Assembly (NCBI GenBank): GCA_025925195.1
Contig: JAICLU010000002.1
Location: forward strand, 1 to 51,218
DNA from: Thermoleophilia bacterium
Lineage (GTDB): Bacteria > Actinomycetota > Thermoleophilia > Gaiellales > Gaiellaceae
DNA: 51,218 nucleotides
Direction: 5' to 3'
The notes under the pieces: generated by a model
The model's input: only the letters and a program-made list of their open reading frames with translations
What the model was told of the DNA's origin: nothing
Databases searched by the model: none
Part shown: positions 16,738 through 25,569 of the stretch, piece after piece
Numbering within the stretch: position 1 is the first letter of the stretch
How the letters are laid out: each line of letters begins with the position of its first letter
Program-made: the position numbers and the translations under genes

Positions 16738-16935
16738 CTACGCGGCGGAGGCCGTGGCCGGCGCTGCCCCTGCCGGCGGCTCGCGCCGCTCGATGCGGAT
16801 CGGATGACCGCCGCGGCAGAGGAACACGCCCTCGTCGAGATCGCCGTCGAGCCGTCCCGCAAACGTCGTCCCGCACGTGTCGCAGGTCGCGGAGAACGTC
16901 GTCTCGATCGGGCCGATCGGGACGACCTGCGTCAC
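16738..16935 (-). CDS. Small zinc-ribbon-like protein, 65 aa
   Basis: CDTCGTTF...FLCRGGH putative metal ligands; GTGA overlap with the upstream dnaB stop. Confidence 0.65.
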   Translation of the reverse strand: MTQVVPIGPIETTFSATCDTCGTTFAGRLDGDLDEGVFLCRGGHPIRIERREPPAGAAPATASAA

Positions 16936-18377
16936 GCGGCGAGATCCGCGAACTTCGCGTAGCGCTTGAGGAACGAGAGCTTGAGCGCGTCGGTCGGGCC
17001 ATTGCGGTGCTTCGCGACGATCACCTCGGCAAGGCCCTGCTGGTCGGACTCGTCGTTGTAGTACTCGTCGCGGTAGATGAACGCGACGAGGTCGGCGTCC
17101 TGCTCGATCGAGCCCGACTCGCGCAGGTCGGAGAGGATCGGGCGCTTGTCGGTGCGCTGCTCGACGGCGCGCGAGAGCTGCGACAGCGCGATGATCGGCA
17201 CCTCGAGGTCGCGGGCGAGGATCTTGAGCGAGCGGGAGATCTGCGACACCTCCTGCACGCGGTTCTCGGAGCTGCCCGCGGACGACATCAGCTGCAGGTA
17301 GTCGATGATCAGCAGCCCGAGGTTCGGATGGCGGGACTTGAGCCGCCGCGCCTTCGACCGGATCTCCATCATGTTGATCGAGCCGGTGTCGTCGACGTAG
17401 ATGTCGGCCTTCGCGAGCTTGTCGCAGGCGGCGGTCAGCCGCGGCCAGTCGTCGGGCGCGAGCTTGCCACTGCGCAGCCGCTGGGATTCCACCTTCGCCT
17501 CCGAGCACATCAAACGCTGCGTGACCTCCGACTTCGACATCTCGAGGCTGAAGATGCCGACCGGCAGGTTGTGGCGGACCGCGATGTTGACCGCCATGCA
17601 GAGGGCGAGCGCCGACTTCCCCATCGACGGCCGGGCCGCGAGGATGATCAGGTTGCCCGGCTGGAACCCGGACGTGATCCGGTCGAGATCACGATAGCCG
17701 GACGGCGTGCCGGTGATGTCGGCGCCGGCCTCGTACAGGCTCGTGATCCGCTCGAAGCTGTCCTTCAGCAGGCCGTCGATGTGGTCGAGCTCGCCGCTGA
17801 CCCGCTGCTGGGAGAGGTCGAAGACGATCTGCTCGGCCTGGTCGACGAGGTCGCCGGCCTCGCCCGGCCGCTCCCAGCCGAGGCGCGAGATCTCGCCGCC
17901 GGCGCGGATCAGCCCGCGCAGCGTCGCGGTCTCGTGGACGATCCGCGCGTAGTGCGCCGCGTTCGCCGCCGCGGGGACGAGCGCCGCGAGCTCGTGCAGC
18001 CGGACGCGACCGCCGACGTCCTCGAGCTCGCCCCGCTCCTCGAGCTGGTCGGTGAGCGTGATCGCGTCGACCGGCTCGCCCTTCGCGTACAGCGCGAGCG
18101 CCGCGCGGTAGATCTTCGCGTGCGACTCGCGGTAGAAGTCGCCCGCGTCGAGGATCTCGCTGACGGCGCCGATCGCGCCCGGCGAGAGCATCATCGCTCC
18201 GAGGACGCTCTCCTCCGCTTCCAGGTTCTGCGGCGGGACGAGGGCTGCAGCATTCGGACCGGCGGGCGACTGGGCGAGTGCGACCATGCCGGGGGATTCC
18301 AGCAGGCGCGGGCCGCCGGCGCCAGGGGGCCTGCCTGGTGTCGACAGGTCGGTTGTGAACAGGTCGTTTCTCGCCAT
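16932..18377 (-). CDS. dnaB: Replicative DNA helicase DnaB
   Basis: PPQNLEAEESVLGAMMLSPGAI, AARPSMGKSALAL Walker A, LLIIDYLQLM, LSQLSRAVEQRTDKRP. Confidence 0.97.
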   Translation of the reverse strand: MARNDLFTTDLSTPGRPPGAGGPRLLESPGMVALAQSPAGPNAAALVPPQNLEAEESVLGAMMLSPGAIGAVSEILDAGDFYRESHAKIYRAALALYAKGEPVDAITLTDQLEERGELEDVGGRVRLHELAALVPAAANAAHYARIVHETATLRGLIRAGGEISRLGWERPGEAGDLVDQAEQIVFDLSQQRVSGELDHIDGLLKDSFERITSLYEAGADITGTPSGYRDLDRITSGFQPGNLIILAARPSMGKSALALCMAVNIAVRHNLPVGIFSLEMSKSEVTQRLMCSEAKVESQRLRSGKLAPDDWPRLTAACDKLAKADIYVDDTGSINMMEIRSKARRLKSRHPNLGLLIIDYLQLMSSAGSSENRVQEVSQISRSLKILARDLEVPIIALSQLSRAVEQRTDKRPILSDLRESGSIEQDADLVAFIYRDEYYNDESDQQGLAEVIVAKHRNGPTDALKLSFLKRYAKFADLAA

Positions 18378-18465
18378 TTGCAGGGGAATCGACCAGTGTC
18401 GCAGGCGCGTCGGACGGCGCGGACTGTGGACAGAAAGAGCCGTCTGAGCGGGAAGTTCCGCGCGA

Positions 18466-18496
18466 GATCCACAGGCCGGCGACCGGCCTGTGGATC
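18466..18496 (-). terminator. Perfect 14-bp hairpin between rplI and dnaB (terminator/attenuator candidate)
   Basis: gatccacaggccgg (18466-18479) cga ccggcctgtggatc (18483-18496); no T-tract directly after it. Confidence 0.6.
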
Positions 18497-18510
18497 CCGG
18501 CGCGGCAGGC

Positions 18511-19146
18511 CTACTCCTCGGCGAGCGCCGCGTCGGCGTCGGCGCGCCAGTCCGGCTCCGCCTCGGCCTCGGCGGCCGGCGTCGGCGTCTCGTCGAGCAG
18601 GTCCTCGATCTCGCCGATCCCCTCGGCCTCGGCGGGCGCCGGAGCCTCGGGCTGCTCGGCGGCGGCCATCGCCGCGAGCTCCTCGTCGGAGGGCAGCTCG
18701 CCGCCCTCCGGGATCACGAGCGTCGCCACCTCGACGGTGACGCCCTGGAACAGGTCGATCGGCACCTGGTAGCGGCCGATCCGCTTGATCGTCTCGACAC
18801 CGATCTTGCGGCGGTCGACGCGCACCTTCTGCGTCTCCCACAGCTGGTCGGCGATGTCGGTCGGCGTCACCGAGCCGAAGAGGGAGCCGGTCGGGCCGGC
18901 CTTCACCTCGAAGCGCAGCTCCGCAGAGCCGAGCTTCTTCGCGAGCGCCTGCGCCTCGTCGGAGCTCTTCGCCTCGTGCCGGGCCCGTTGCGCGTCGCGC
19001 TTCTGCAGTTCGGCCACGCGCGCCTTCGTCGCCTCCTCGGCGAGGTTGCGCGGGAACAGGAAGTTCCGGGCGTAGCCGCGGGCGACCGAGACCACCTCGC
19101 CGCGCAGGCCGACCTGGTCGACGTCTCTGAGCAGGATGACCTCCAT
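18511..19146 (-). CDS. rplI: 50S ribosomal protein L9
   Basis: [40 protein letters not shown]; long acidic C-terminal tail. Confidence 0.96.
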   Translation of the reverse strand: MEVILLRDVDQVGLRGEVVSVARGYARNFLFPRNLAEEATKARVAELQKRDAQRARHEAKSSDEAQALAKKLGSAELRFEVKAGPTGSLFGSVTPTDIADQLWETQKVRVDRRKIGVETIKRIGRYQVPIDLFQGVTVEVATLVIPEGGELPSDEELAAMAAAEQPEAPAPAEAEGIGEIEDLLDETPTPAAEAEAEPDWRADADAALAEE

Positions 19147-19469
19147 CAGCGGTCGTCCCTGTCCCGCCGGCGACCGCCGCCGCCGCCGCTGCGCTCCTCG
19201 ACGCCCTCGGCCACGTACGGCAGCAGCGCCATTTCGCGGGCCCGCTTCACGGCCGTCGCGACCTGCACCTGGTGCCGGCGGCAGGCGCCCGTGATGCGGC
19301 GGCTGCGGATCTTCCCCTTCTCGGAGATGTACCGCCGCAACTGGCTGACGTTCTTGTAGTCGATCTCGTCGATCTTGTCCTTGCAGAAGAAGCAGTTCCG
19401 GCGCTTGACCTGGCCTGCAGGCCCGCCGGGCCGCTTGCGCTGCTGGGTGCTCGTCTTCTCGCGTGCCAT
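19146..19469 (-). CDS. rpsR: 30S ribosomal protein S18
   Basis: [46 protein letters not shown]. Confidence 0.97.
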
Positions 19470-19476
19470 CAGTCTC

Positions 19477-19926
19477 CTAGAACGGAATGTCGTCGTCGGC
19501 CGCGGCGGGGAAGTCGGCGCTTTCCGACCCCGCCCCCGGCGGCACGAACTGGTTGCCGCCGCCGCCGAACCCGCCGCCGCCCTCGCCGCCGTCCCGCGAC
19601 CCGAGGAACTGCACGCTGTCGGCGACGACCTCGACGGCCTCGCGCTTGCTGCCGTCCTGCTGCTGCCACTCGCGCCACTCGAGCCGGCCGTCGATCGCGA
19701 CCGGACGGCCCTTGCTCAGGTACTGCGCGCACGACTCGGCCTGGTTGCCGAAGACGCTGACGCTGAAGTAGTTCGGCTTGTCGGCCCACTGGCCGGTCTC
19801 GTCCTTGCGCCGCGTGTTGACGGCGATGCGGAGCGAGGTGACCGCCGTCCCGCCGGGCGTGTGCTTCAGCTCGGGATCGCGGGTCAGGTTGCCCACGAGG
19901 ACGACGCGGTTGATGTTGGCTGCCAT
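19477..19926 (-). CDS. ssb: Single-stranded DNA-binding protein
   Basis: [33 protein letters not shown]-rich tail ending DDDIPF. Confidence 0.97.
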
Positions 19927-19929
19927 CGC

Positions 19930-20382
19930 TTACTCCTCCTCGTCCGTCTCGACGGCCTCGGGGACGCTGTCGGGTTCCGGTTCGGTCTCGGATACGGCTT
20001 CCGGCTCCGCTTCGAGCGGGGGAGCCGTGTACTGCTCGACGGGCGGGGCGGGCGCCGGGACCGGCGTCTCGTCGCGCGGCGCGCTCGTCTTCGAGCCCTC
20101 GATGTGCTTCGTCGCCATGTGGCGCAGGACGGTGTCGTCGATCTTCAGCACGCGCGAGATCTCGTCGAGCGTCTCCGCGGCTGCCTCGAAGACGACGAGG
20201 TGGTAGACGCCCTCGGCCTTCTTCGCGATCGGGTACGCGAGGCGCCTGCGGCCCCACGCGTCGTGGCTGCGCCAGGTGCCGGCGCCCTTCTCGACGAGGT
20301 CGCGCACGCGCGCGAGCAGGTCGTCCTGGTGCGCCTCGGCGCCCTCAGGGTCCAGCATGAGCAGAACCTCATATGTCGTCAA
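19930..20382 (-). CDS. rpsF: 30S ribosomal protein S6
   Basis: TTG 20382 after GGAGG; TTYEVLLMLDPEG, WGRRRLAYPIAKKAEGVYHL. Confidence 0.95.
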   Translation of the reverse strand: MTTYEVLLMLDPEGAEAHQDDLLARVRDLVEKGAGTWRSHDAWGRRRLAYPIAKKAEGVYHLVVFEAAAETLDEISRVLKIDDTVLRHMATKHIEGSKTSAPRDETPVPAPAPPVEQYTAPPLEAEPEAVSETEPEPDSVPEAVETDEEE

Positions 20383-20799: not shown

Positions 20800-21441
20800 G
20801 TGCGGGCCGTCGACCTGACGCACGCGTTCGACAACGGGATGCCCGTGTTCCCGGGCCTGCCCGACCCGTCGTTCGAGCACATCGCCCAGGTCGAGCAGGA
20901 CGGGTATGCGATGACGCGCTACTCGATGCTCAACCACGTCGGGACGCACGTCGACGCGCCGGCGCACCAGATCGCCGGCGGCGACACGCTCGACGAGATC
21001 GGCCTCGAGCGGCTCGTCACCGACGCGGTGCGGATCGACGTCTCGCAGCGCGACCCGCACGGCGCGATCCCACTCGAGGAGCTCCGCGGCGAGCTCGAGC
21101 GCGTCCGGCGCGGCGACATCGTCCTCTTCTATTCGAACAACGCCCGCAACTACGGCACCGACGCGTACTGGACCGGCTGGTCGTATCCGGATCCGGACGC
21201 GTCGCGGGCGCTGATCGAGCGCGGCGTGTCGGCCGTCGGCTTCGACGGCCCGAGCGCCGACCCGGTCGACTCGACCACGATGGACCTGCACCGGATCTGG
21301 CTGTCGGCGGGCCGGATGATCCTCGAGAACGTCAACAACCTCGACCTGTTGCCGGACCGCGCGCAGATCGTCGTCGCACCGATGAAGGTCGCCCGCGCGA
21401 ACGGCGCGCCCACTCGCATCTTCGCTCTGCTTCCCGACTAG
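20800..21441 (+). CDS. Cyclase-family protein (kynurenine formamidase-like hydrolase)
   Basis: LTHAFDNGMPVFPGLPDP and metal motif NHVGTHVDAPAH. Confidence 0.92.
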   Translation: MRAVDLTHAFDNGMPVFPGLPDPSFEHIAQVEQDGYAMTRYSMLNHVGTHVDAPAHQIAGGDTLDEIGLERLVTDAVRIDVSQRDPHGAIPLEELRGELERVRRGDIVLFYSNNARNYGTDAYWTGWSYPDPDASRALIERGVSAVGFDGPSADPVDSTTMDLHRIWLSAGRMILENVNNLDLLPDRAQIVVAPMKVARANGAPTRIFALLPD

Positions 21442-21451
21442 GAGGAGAAGG

Positions 21452-22897
21452 ATGGAAGGCAGGATCGGTGAACTCCGGCACGGCATCCTCAGCATGGTCG
21501 ACTCGCTCGCCCAGTCGGTCGCGCTGCTCTCCCTCGCGCTCGGCGTCGCATTCGCGTCGTCGGCCGCGGCGGGCGAGGCGGGGATCGCCGCGCCGTTCGC
21601 GTATCTGATCGCGGGCGTCGGCAGCCTCTGCCTCGGCTCGGTGATCATCCGTTTCACGCGCCGTATGGCGAGCGCCGGCGGCCTCTACACGTACATCTCG
21701 CGCGGGCTCAACCCGAGCGCCGGCTTCCTCGGCGGCTGGTTGTACGGCGGGGCGTTCGCAGTCGGGATCTCGTTCGTGCTCGTGATCGGCTCGTTCTTCA
21801 TGTCGACCGCCTTCACCGCGCACACGAGCCTGCACTGGGGCTGGTACCCGTGGTTCTTCATCATGCTCGCTGCGCTGGCGGCGATCTCGTTCCTCGACGT
21901 CCGCATCTCGTCGCGCATCCAGTTGATCGCCGCGGCGGTCGGGGTCGGCGCGATCCTCGTGCTCGCGTTCGCGATCCTGTTCCAGGGTGGGGACTCCGGC
22001 CTGACGCTCGCGCCCCTCAACCCGGCGAACGCGGTCTCGACGAGCGACCTCTTCCTCGCCGTCGTGCTGACGTTCACCGGCTTCATCGGGTTCGAGGCGG
22101 CCGCCGCGTTCGGCGAGGAGACCGCCGACCCGCTGCGCGCGATCCCGAAGGCGATCCTCACCGCCGTGATCGTGGCCGTCGTCTACTACGTCTTCGTCAC
22201 CTGGATGATGGGCGTCGGGTTCGGCGACGCCTCGAAGTGGGCGAAGGATCCGGCGGCGCTCGACACGCTCGCGACTCGGTACGTCGGCAACTGGCTGGCC
22301 GTGATCATCGACTTCGCCGTCGCCGCCTCCGGCTTCATCGCGGCGCTCGCAGGCACGAACCTCACGTCGCGCACCGCCTATGCGATGGGACGCGAGGGCG
22401 GCCTGCCGCGGCTCTTCGCGTGGACGCACCCGCGCTTCCGCACGCCGTGGGTCGGCATCGCGTTCTCGCTCGTCGTGACGCTGCTGCTCGGCGTCTTCTT
22501 CGCGCATCGCTACGACCCGATCACGTACTTCATCTGGATGGCGACGTGCGCGACGATCGGGATCCTGATCACGTACATCCTGATCGCGATCGCCGGCATC
22601 TCGTACTTCGCCCGTGACAGGACCGGCTGGAACCCGCTGCTCGACCTCGTGATCCCGGCCGGCGCGATTGCGATCTGCGGTTACACGCTCTACAAGTCGA
22701 TCCACCCGACGCCCGGTTACACGGGCATCTTCAGGTGGGCGCCGTGGGTGGCGCTCATCTGGCTCGGCGCGGGCGTCTTGATCGACGTCGTGCTCACGAT
22801 CTCGAGGCCCGAGCGCGTGCGCGCGTTCGGCACGATTCTCGGCGCGTCCGAAGGGGCGGAGGCGGCGCCCGAGGCGCCGCCCGTCATGAATCCGTAG
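21452..22897 (+). CDS. APC-superfamily amino acid permease
   Basis: About 12 hydrophobic helices; FTGFIGFEAAAAFGEET, SRTAYAMGREGGLPRLFAWTHPRFRTPWVGI; GGAGGAGAAGG before ATG. Confidence 0.93.
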   Translation: MEGRIGELRHGILSMVDSLAQSVALLSLALGVAFASSAAAGEAGIAAPFAYLIAGVGSLCLGSVIIRFTRRMASAGGLYTYISRGLNPSAGFLGGWLYGGAFAVGISFVLVIGSFFMSTAFTAHTSLHWGWYPWFFIMLAALAAISFLDVRISSRIQLIAAAVGVGAILVLAFAILFQGGDSGLTLAPLNPANAVSTSDLFLAVVLTFTGFIGFEAAAAFGEETADPLRAIPKAILTAVIVAVVYYVFVTWMMGVGFGDASKWAKDPAALDTLATRYVGNWLAVIIDFAVAASGFIAALAGTNLTSRTAYAMGREGGLPRLFAWTHPRFRTPWVGIAFSLVVTLLLGVFFAHRYDPITYFIWMATCATIGILITYILIAIAGISYFARDRTGWNPLLDLVIPAGAIAICGYTLYKSIHPTPGYTGIFRWAPWVALIWLGAGVLIDVVLTISRPERVRAFGTILGASEGAEAAPEAPPVMNP

Positions 22898-22945
22898 CGG
22901 GGTGCCGTAACCGGGGCGCAGCATTGGACGTTTCCAGGACGGACA

Positions 22946-24373
22946 ATGCCGCGCCCCGTTCCCGCCGACCTCGAAGACGCCCTCGCCGCGAGCCCCGCCG
23001 CGCGCGAGCGCTTCTGGGCGCTTCCGCCCGACCAGCTCGACCGCTGGGTCGCCTACGTCGAGCGTTCGCGATTCCCGGGCGCGCGGCGGCGCCGAGTGGC
23101 CGAGACCGTGCGCCGGCTCGGCGGCGCTCCCGTCGCGACGGAGACGGCGGAGCCCCGCGCGGCCGCGGTGCCGCTGCCGCGCGACGACTGGGCCGTCTGG
23201 CTGATCGGGCTCGCGCTCCTGGCCGGGCTCGCGGCCTTCCTCGTCTGGCTGACCGTCTACCGGCACCACGACAACCAGGCGGCGCCGGCCGCCGTCGTCG
23301 TGACCGCGAAGACGGACGTGCCCAAGGTGGTCGGCATCCGCCAGCAGGCCGCGGAGTTCCAGCTGAAGGAGGCGAAGCTCGGCGCCAAGGTGATCCAGCG
23401 CGAGGCGAAGAAGCCGAAAGGGATCGTGCTCTCGCAGGCGCCGCAGTCCGGCACGCGCGTCGTCCAGGGATCGGTCGTCACGCTCGTCGTGTCGAAGGGC
23501 CATCCGGGCGTCGCGGTCCCGAAGGTGGTCGGGCTCGCTGCTGCCGACGCCGCCAAGCAGCTGCAGGCGAAGGGCTTCGGCGTGACCTTGAAGCAGACGC
23601 CCGCGAAGGCCGCGCCGGGCACCGTCGTGCAGCAATCGCCGCAGGCCGGCAAGCGCGCCAAGCGCGGCACGGCGGTCACCCTCGCCGTCGCGAAGGGAGC
23701 CGCCGCGGTCGCCGTGCCCGACCTGACCGGTCAGACGCAGCAGGACGCCGTCGCGGCGCTGCAGCAGCAGGGCCTGAACGCCCACGTCGTCGACGTCGCG
23801 TCCGTGAAGCCGGCGGGCACGGTCGTCGCGCAGAATCCGGCACCGAACAGCAAGGTGCAGCAGGGCGGCACTGTGCGGCTGAACGTCGCACGGCGCGCTC
23901 CCGCGACGACCTCCGCGACCACGACGACCCAGGCCACGACGACCCGGGCCACGACGACGCAGGCGACGACCACGACGCCGACGCAGCAGTCGTCCGGCGG
24001 CAACGACTACCGCGGCATGCGACTGAGCGCCGCCGTGCAGCGCATCGTCGAGGGCCGGCAGGAAGTCGTCGTGCAGTACGTGACCTCGACGCGGCCGGCC
24101 GGTGTCGTCGTCGCGAACTCGAGGGACGGCAGCCGCGTCCGGCTGCAGGTCTCGGCGGGTGCGCATCCGCAGCCCTCCACGAGCGTCCCCGACACGACCG
24201 GTGAGGATTCGTCGACCGCGCAGGACGACCTGACGGGCGCCGGATTCTCCGTCATCACCGCCCAGTGGCCGGTCGGCGACCAGGCGAGCGACGGGGTCGT
24301 CGTCTTCCAGACGCCGACGGGGAGCGCACCCAGGGGGTCGACGATCGTCGTGTACGTCGGCGCAGCGGGATAG
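22946..24373 (+). CDS. YdeI/OmdA-like N-terminal segment, one TM helix, multiple PASTA repeats
   Basis: DLEDALAASPAARERFWALPPDQLDRWVAYVERSRFPGARRRRVAETVRRLGG; TM DWAVWLIGLALLAGLAAFLVWLTVY; repeated VPxVVGxxxxxAxxxLxxxGxxV...Vv.Q.P.aG..v..G..V.L.v units. Confidence 0.8.
   Translation: MPRPVPADLEDALAASPAARERFWALPPDQLDRWVAYVERSRFPGARRRRVAETVRRLGGAPVATETAEPRAAAVPLPRDDWAVWLIGLALLAGLAAFLVWLTVYRHHDNQAAPAAVVVTAKTDVPKVVGIRQQAAEFQLKEAKLGAKVIQREAKKPKGIVLSQAPQSGTRVVQGSVVTLVVSKGHPGVAVPKVVGLAAADAAKQLQAKGFGVTLKQTPAKAAPGTVVQQSPQAGKRAKRGTAVTLAVAKGAAAVAVPDLTGQTQQDAVAALQQQGLNAHVVDVASVKPAGTVVAQNPAPNSKVQQGGTVRLNVARRAPATTSATTTTQATTTRATTTQATTTTPTQQSSGGNDYRGMRLSAAVQRIVEGRQEVVVQYVTSTRPAGVVVANSRDGSRVRLQVSAGAHPQPSTSVPDTTGEDSSTAQDDLTGAGFSVITAQWPVGDQASDGVVVFQTPTGSAPRGSTIVVYVGAAG
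23902..23985 (+). repeat. Thr-rich low-complexity linker with degenerate 15-bp repeats (gccacgacgacccgg-like)
   Basis: Encodes TTSATTTTQATTTRATTTQATTTTPT between PASTA groups. Confidence 0.8.
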
Positions 24374-24402
24374 TTCGGACCGCGAGGTGTATGGTCGCAG
24401 CG

Positions 24403-24726
24403 GTGAGCACCCGCGCGCAGCGTGCCGCCGAGAACGAGAACCTCTTCAGACGGATCAACGAACGCGTCGAGCACTTGACGCCGGCCGGCAGGAGCCTGTC
24501 GATCGTGTGCGAGTGCGCCGACGCGACCTGCGTGCGACGGATCTCGGGCGTGCCCGCGGCGGCGTACGAGGAGGTCCGGCGCCACCCCGACCGGTTCTTC
24601 GTCTCGCGCGGACACGAGCAGACTGACGTCGAAACCGTCGTCGCGGAGCACGGTGCGTATCTCATCGTCGCGAAACGGGGCGAGGCGGGAGCGGTCGCCC
24701 GGCACGACGCCCCAGGATCGGACTAG
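24403..24726 (+). CDS. Conserved-looking actinobacterial hypothetical (CECxxxxC-type)
   Basis: GTG 24403 with TATGGT 7 nt upstream; LSIVCECADATCVRRISGVPAAAYEEVRRHPDRFFVSRGHEQTDVETVVAEHGAYLIVAKRG. Alternative ATG 24391. Confidence 0.75.
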   Translation: MSTRAQRAAENENLFRRINERVEHLTPAGRSLSIVCECADATCVRRISGVPAAAYEEVRRHPDRFFVSRGHEQTDVETVVAEHGAYLIVAKRGEAGAVARHDAPGSD

Positions 24727-24757
24727 GAAGTCGAGGAATCGGGAACCCGAGCCGCCG

Positions 24758-25090
24758 ATGCAGGGCACGTCGAGGAGCGAGCTCGCGGCAGAGCTCGAGC
24801 GGTGCGCGCGGCTGGCCGAGGACACGGCCGAGCAGTACGCGGACCGCGACGGCGATCGCATGCGGAGCGACGTCGTTTCAGGCCTCCTGCTCGCCGCGGC
24901 AGCGCTCGACACCGCCGTCCGCGTCGTGGACGAGGGGACGCGGATCCGCGCGACCGGGCTGATGATCGCGCGGACGCTCGTCGGCGACGCGATCGACGCC
25001 GCGGAGCGGCGCGGCCTCGACGAGCTGCTGCTCGGCTGTGTCGCGTCGCTGCGACGGGTGGCGGAGCGGCTCGACGGGGAGCTGTCGTAG
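24758..25090 (+). CDS. Hypothetical helical protein, 110 aa
   Basis: ATG 24758; RTLVGDAIDAAERRGLDELL; stop overlaps next start. Confidence 0.65.
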   Translation: MQGTSRSELAAELERCARLAEDTAEQYADRDGDRMRSDVVSGLLLAAAALDTAVRVVDEGTRIRATGLMIARTLVGDAIDAAERRGLDELLLGCVASLRRVAERLDGELS

Positions 25091-25569
25091 TGCCGGCGCG
25101 GTACCTGCCGATCTACCTGAACGACCATCTCGCAGCGCTGACGCTCGGCGTTCTCGTCGCGCAGCGCGTCCGCGCCGCGAACGGCGGCGAGCTCGGCGAG
25201 CTCCTCGAGTGGCTGCACGGTCAGCTCGAGGAGGACCGGCAGTGGCTCCTCGCGCTGATGCGACGGCTCGGGATCGCGCCGTCGGCGGCGAAGGTGGCCG
25301 GCGCGCACGTCGCGGAGCGGCTCGGCCGTCTGAAGCCGAACGGCCACGTGACCTCCTACTCGCCGCTCTCGCGGCTGGTCGAGCTCGACGCGCTCGCGGC
25401 GTCGCTCGCGGCGAAGGCCGCATTCTGGGGCTCGTTGCAGCAGGTTCCGGAAGAGCGGATCGACGCCCAGGAGCTCGAACGGCTCGGCGAGCGGGCGCGG
25501 GAGCAACGCGAGCGGCTCGAGCCGCATCGCGTCGCGGCGGCGGCGACCGCCCTCGGCCCGGATCGGTAG
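25090..25569 (+). CDS. Hypothetical helical-bundle protein, 159 aa
   Basis: GTG 25090; VPARYLPIYLNDHLAALTLGVLVAQRVRAANGGELGELLEWLHGQLEEDRQWL resembles ferritin-like/four-helix proteins. Confidence 0.65.
   Translation: MPARYLPIYLNDHLAALTLGVLVAQRVRAANGGELGELLEWLHGQLEEDRQWLLALMRRLGIAPSAAKVAGAHVAERLGRLKPNGHVTSYSPLSRLVELDALAASLAAKAAFWGSLQQVPEERIDAQELERLGERAREQRERLEPHRVAAAATALGPDR

Follow-up and report, generated by a model that had tools for sequence, protein, structure and literature searches.

Most known arrays of PASTA domains belong to kinases or penicillin-binding proteins. What purpose, then, could such an array serve on a membrane protein in which a small helical domain takes the kinase's place on the cytosolic side? 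The question is raised by one gene in a 51,218-nucleotide stretch of DNA (the window) from an uncultured actinobacterium of the class Thermoleophilia. Its ORF opens with an ATG codon at a position shared with close relatives. The initial annotation read the product as an unusual fusion of an OmdA-like cytosolic segment, a transmembrane (TM) helix, three PASTA repeats, a Thr-rich linker and two further PASTA-like units.

This order of parts was borne out by Pfam searches and AlphaFold2 modelling (Table 1). The PASTA family (PF03793) matches the protein in four stretches over the cut-off, with 157 bits, and Foldseek aligns the PASTA folds to the ectodomains of PknB and PrkC (E 1e-12 to 1e-13), which upholds the PASTA assignment. 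In the window's genus the fourth unit no longer has the VPxVVG motif at its start, while the corresponding PASTA domain is canonical in relatives from other genera. As claimed, the cytosolic side is not a kinase, since Pfam detects no protein kinase domain (PF00069) anywhere in the protein; nor does it detect a BOF domain (PF04076). The NCBIfam PASTA-kinase model NF033483 aligns to residues 79–314, the TM and PASTA part, scoring 170 bits against a cut-off of 450, a shortfall that follows from the absent kinase domain. The full-length AlphaFold2 model, built like our other structure predictions on a shallow alignment (no more than five rows, from the window and related loci only), comprises a four-helix N-terminus (helices at 7–15, 17–25, 28–39 and 44–57), the TM helix and five PASTA-like units; confidence is low over residues 64–81, 105–119 and 319–351. 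Modelled alone, the OmdA part reached a pLDDT of 88 and a pTM of 0.70. A 944-codon ORF on the minus strand (21332–24166) lies antisense to the fusion gene and the neighbouring permease; its translation is rich in Arg, Asp and Gly and looks like an artefact of high GC content.

Table 1. Coordinates of the fusion gene, its parts and its neighbours in the window.
Feature	Position	Strand	Basis and remarks
OmdA-TM-PASTAx5 gene, 475 aa	22946..24373	+	ORF, domain searches, AlphaFold2
OmdA domain (PF13376), residues 4–58, four predicted helices, predicted cytosolic side	22955..23119	+	
Fast-evolving cytosolic linker, residues 59–80	23120..23185	+	dN/dS about 1, low pLDDT
Transmembrane helix, residues 82–108	23189..23269	+	AlphaFold2 helix, hydrophobic sequence, kept in carriers
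PASTA 1, residues about 124–184	23315..23497	+	Pfam, AlphaFold2
PASTA 2, residues about 188–250	23507..23695	+	Pfam, AlphaFold2
PASTA 3, residues about 253–315	23702..23890	+	Best Pfam stretch 255–315, AlphaFold2
Thr-rich linker, residues 319–351	23900..23998	+	Sequence, pLDDT <50
PASTA 4, degenerate, residues about 353–405	24002..24160	+	AlphaFold2 fold elements
PASTA 5, residues about 411–473	24176..24364	+	Pfam, AlphaFold2
dnaB-rplI-rpsR-ssb-rpsF operon, marker of the orthologous locus	16935..20382	-	Synteny; rpsF and rplI confirmed by NCBIfam
Putative cyclase (PF04199)	20800..21441	+	Co-directional, 10 bases before permease; also in L082, L096
Amino acid permease (APC family)	21452..22897	+	PF13520, 123 bits; co-directional, 48 bases upstream of fusion; beside fusion in L096

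The OmdA assignment, which had been proposed for residues 1–65, also holds. In the full protein PF13376 matches residues 4–58 with an E-value of 9.3e-9 and 35.6 bits (Pfam cut-off 25.6), and the N-terminal 81 residues alone score 39.8 bits. An independent profile built only from 25 OmdA domains of non-fusion proteins gave 43.9 bits, against 8.3 bits for the best of 1000 shuffled sequences and -4.6 for the reversed one; these controls rule out a chance match arising from Arg/Ala-rich composition. The OmdA regions of the ten genomes found to carry the fusion scored 32.5–57.9 bits in a separate profile search (shuffles at most 16.6). Over its approximately 55 residues the domain shares with soluble OmdA proteins the VPxDL motif, a Phe and a TRxRRI-like motif. 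Residues P6, D8, A12, P17, A19, F23, W34, R47 and R50 are invariant in the ten carriers, and P6, A19 and R47 are near-invariant in the wider OmdA set as well. A sequence-profile search for structural relatives of OmdA returned nothing convincing, its best hit (helices of Aer2, E 0.0096) being judged a chance one, and the fold search gave nothing significant (best E 6.8). Our literature search found no functional study of the domain. Stand-alone mini-OmdA proteins of about 60–100 residues occur at loci L043, L048 and L049, and also at L044, L046, L062 and L088; some of them end in a conserved CCWPGC-H-R-xxGR tail, which looks metal-binding.

The family name is another matter. The title of PF13376 refers to "YdeI/OmpD-associated" and "bacteriocin-protection" proteins, names that the initial annotation also used. 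The wording suits the YdeI of enterobacteria, a protein investigated for its binding to OmpD and for resistance to antimicrobial peptides. The E. coli YdeI (L051:9106-9498) matches the BOF family PF04076 with 139 bits and does not match PF13376, so the title seems to describe what an unrelated protein does; we infer that it derives from a shared gene name. The OmpD-interacting YdeI of Salmonella is likewise described as periplasmic and homologous to OB-fold proteins (PMC6370654), whereas the OmdA domain considered here is predicted to be cytosolic. The names thus bring no functional information to this protein, and that reading was dropped: a role in protection against bacteriocins or antimicrobial peptides, for which the Pfam title is the sole argument, is very improbable. 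The case exposes a misleading family name that is passed on by annotation.

How common is the combination? A profile of the OmdA-TM part gave full matches in 10 of the 129 genomes of the order, all within one family. Three of these come from the window's genus, which is represented by 16 genomes; a second genus supplies six and a third genus one. Among 399 genomes sampled across the class, full-length matches were confined to these ten carriers, and among 397 sampled across the phylum the window's own genome was the only one. The samples are partial and many of the genomes incomplete, so that the absence of the fusion is to be taken as a statement of frequency. By itself OmdA is common: in the phylum sample a further 57 genomes match at E≤1e-5, over the OmdA part. 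At the loci inspected it either forms the C-terminus of a soluble protein or makes up a protein of its own, with no TM-like sequence next to it. Misassembly or a chance fusion is ruled out by the recurrence of the same protein in ten genomes at an orthologous locus. The OmdA-PASTA combination is real, conserved and rare, and no paper describing the two domains together was found in our literature search.

Whichever of the three genera the carrier belongs to, the fusion gene lies about 1–6 kb from the dnaB-rplI-rpsR-ssb-rpsF operon. Four congeners possess the same operon with no PASTA gene within the stretch fetched. The permease upstream of the fusion gene is a possible operon partner. The three small ORFs that follow the fusion downstream (24391–24726, 24686–25090 and 25087–25569) have no Pfam match over the cut-off. 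In one genome of the sister genus (G067, locus L096) cyclase, permease, a PLD-family gene and the fusion form one run, adjoined by an Amidase_3 gene, and a PLD gene is found immediately upstream of the fusion in four of the six sister-genus members. Since the PLD proteins score far under the cardiolipin synthase cut-offs, that name is just a lead. This distant likeness, together with an Arg-rich fourth OmdA helix in the window's genus (net charge +6 to +8 in 23 residues), would suit a domain that binds nucleic acid or acidic phospholipid through its last helix and places that ligand, or the membrane, near sites of wall synthesis. However, the OmdA domain as a whole is weakly basic and in some carriers near neutral (net 0 to +6), and the RNA-binding proteins among its fold matches are not significant; we regard such binding as improbable.

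Selection was compared along the protein against two congeneric genomes. By the Nei-Gojobori method, which is rough on segments this short although the contrast is large, dN/dS was 0.16 and 0.20 for the OmdA segment (identity 87% and 78%), 1.03 and 1.16 for the linker behind it, and 0.31–0.65 for the PASTA domains. OmdA is the best-conserved part of the fusion protein. The strongest constraint on OmdA next to a drifting linker agrees with the picture of a tethered, folded interaction domain.

With respect to its origin, the same genome contains a complete PASTA kinase (L122:1465-3414, with PF00069) and a TM-PASTAx3 paralogue possessing neither kinase nor OmdA (L120:1036-1908; G000:C124), whose neighbours are genes for an MFS transporter and a MarR regulator. 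In another genus the MFS/MarR neighbourhood houses OmdA-less TM-PASTAx5 proteins, and OmdA-less TM-PASTA proteins are common in the carriers' family. Given the coexistence of kinase and paralogue, the fusion has the appearance of a PASTA anchor to which a cytosolic module was added. The simplest history would be duplication of a TM-PASTA stem followed by acquisition of OmdA, in that presumed order. In the stem tree a single clade of fusions comes at a cost of 1.6 log units (AU p 0.38), which is compatible with one or two origins, and the OmdA tree, with 60 columns, is weak; a single origin is favoured because the locus is shared. The frequency of OmdA-less stems indicates that the stalk is useful by itself, as would be expected if the protein were a passive tether, its PASTA stalk anchoring or spacing the wall and OmdA being no more than a folded plug on the cytosolic side that neither signals nor recruits. 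Yet a plug would not need a dN/dS of 0.16–0.20 with the family-invariant residues kept, and this explanation is unlikely.

We consider the protein most likely to be a kinase-less membrane receptor or anchor, with a probability of roughly 45%, in which the PASTA array resides at wall-synthesis sites and OmdA docks a cytosolic partner. By analogy with known PASTA biology, peptidoglycan fragments or precursors would be the ligands of the five extracellular domains, and this binding would gather the protein at the septum and poles. In the cytosol the four-helix OmdA domain, held on its flexible tether, may then act as a docking module that brings a partner to these sites independently of phosphorylation. 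Such a protein could have arisen when a stem gene akin to the kinase-less PASTA gene that neighbours MFS and MarR in this genome gained its N-terminal OmdA. Several observations count for this anchor. The PASTA folds match the PknB and PrkC ectodomains, and the PASTA domains of PknB bind muropeptides and are required for its septal and polar localisation (PMC3145798). The mobility of OmdA between contexts (alone, after DUF1905, or after a YdeI-type core) is expected of a docking module, and the wall-related Amidase_3 gene and the PLD-family gene near the fusion in the sister genus point the same way. Against it, the closest neighbours in the window, cyclase and permease, are metabolic, congeners live without the fusion gene, the searches turned up no structurally solved or functionally studied relative of OmdA, and muropeptide binding is not common to all PASTA domains.

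Muropeptide sensing by the fusion protein, as the initial annotation had suggested, is plausible by analogy. In a one-component receptor, as opposed to a fixed anchor, muropeptide binding would alter the oligomeric state and OmdA would relay the change, for instance through release or capture of a regulator, again independently of phosphorylation. The topology is that of the PASTA kinases, to whose model the TM and PASTA part aligns, and the cytosolic domain is constrained. But no output gene or regulator was found adjoining the fusion, and a linker with dN/dS about 1 is ill-suited to tight conformational coupling across the membrane; a relay of this kind is possible, if rather unlikely. Were it true, a phosphorylation-independent muropeptide receptor would provide wall sensing with an output module of a new kind and give the large uncharacterised OmdA family its first functional handle. 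More generally, that a kinase has been exchanged for a small domain, and the exchange conserved under selection, suggests that outputs other than phosphorylation are open to wall sensing or to localisation directed by the wall. OmdA is widespread in bacteria, and the wall-tied version points to where its role might be sought.

As in the PASTA Ser/Thr kinases (PknB, PrkC and StkP; NF033483), a single TM helix of the fusion protein leads to an extracellular array of PASTA domains, but where the kinases carry their catalytic domain inside the cell the fusion carries OmdA. The kinase-less TM-PASTA proteins of the carriers' family (L099-L107, L120) share with it the TM helix, three to five PASTA domains and the Thr-rich linker; they differ in a short Arg/Pro-rich N-terminus devoid of OmdA and are encoded at other genomic loci. 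With the enterobacterial YdeI/OmdA, a periplasmic OB-fold protein, it has the name alone in common. The soluble OmdA proteins (YdeI-type, DUF1905-OmdA and stand-alone) contain the same OmdA domain, either C-terminal or alone and with no TM helix, whereas in the fusion it lies N-terminal to the TM helix.
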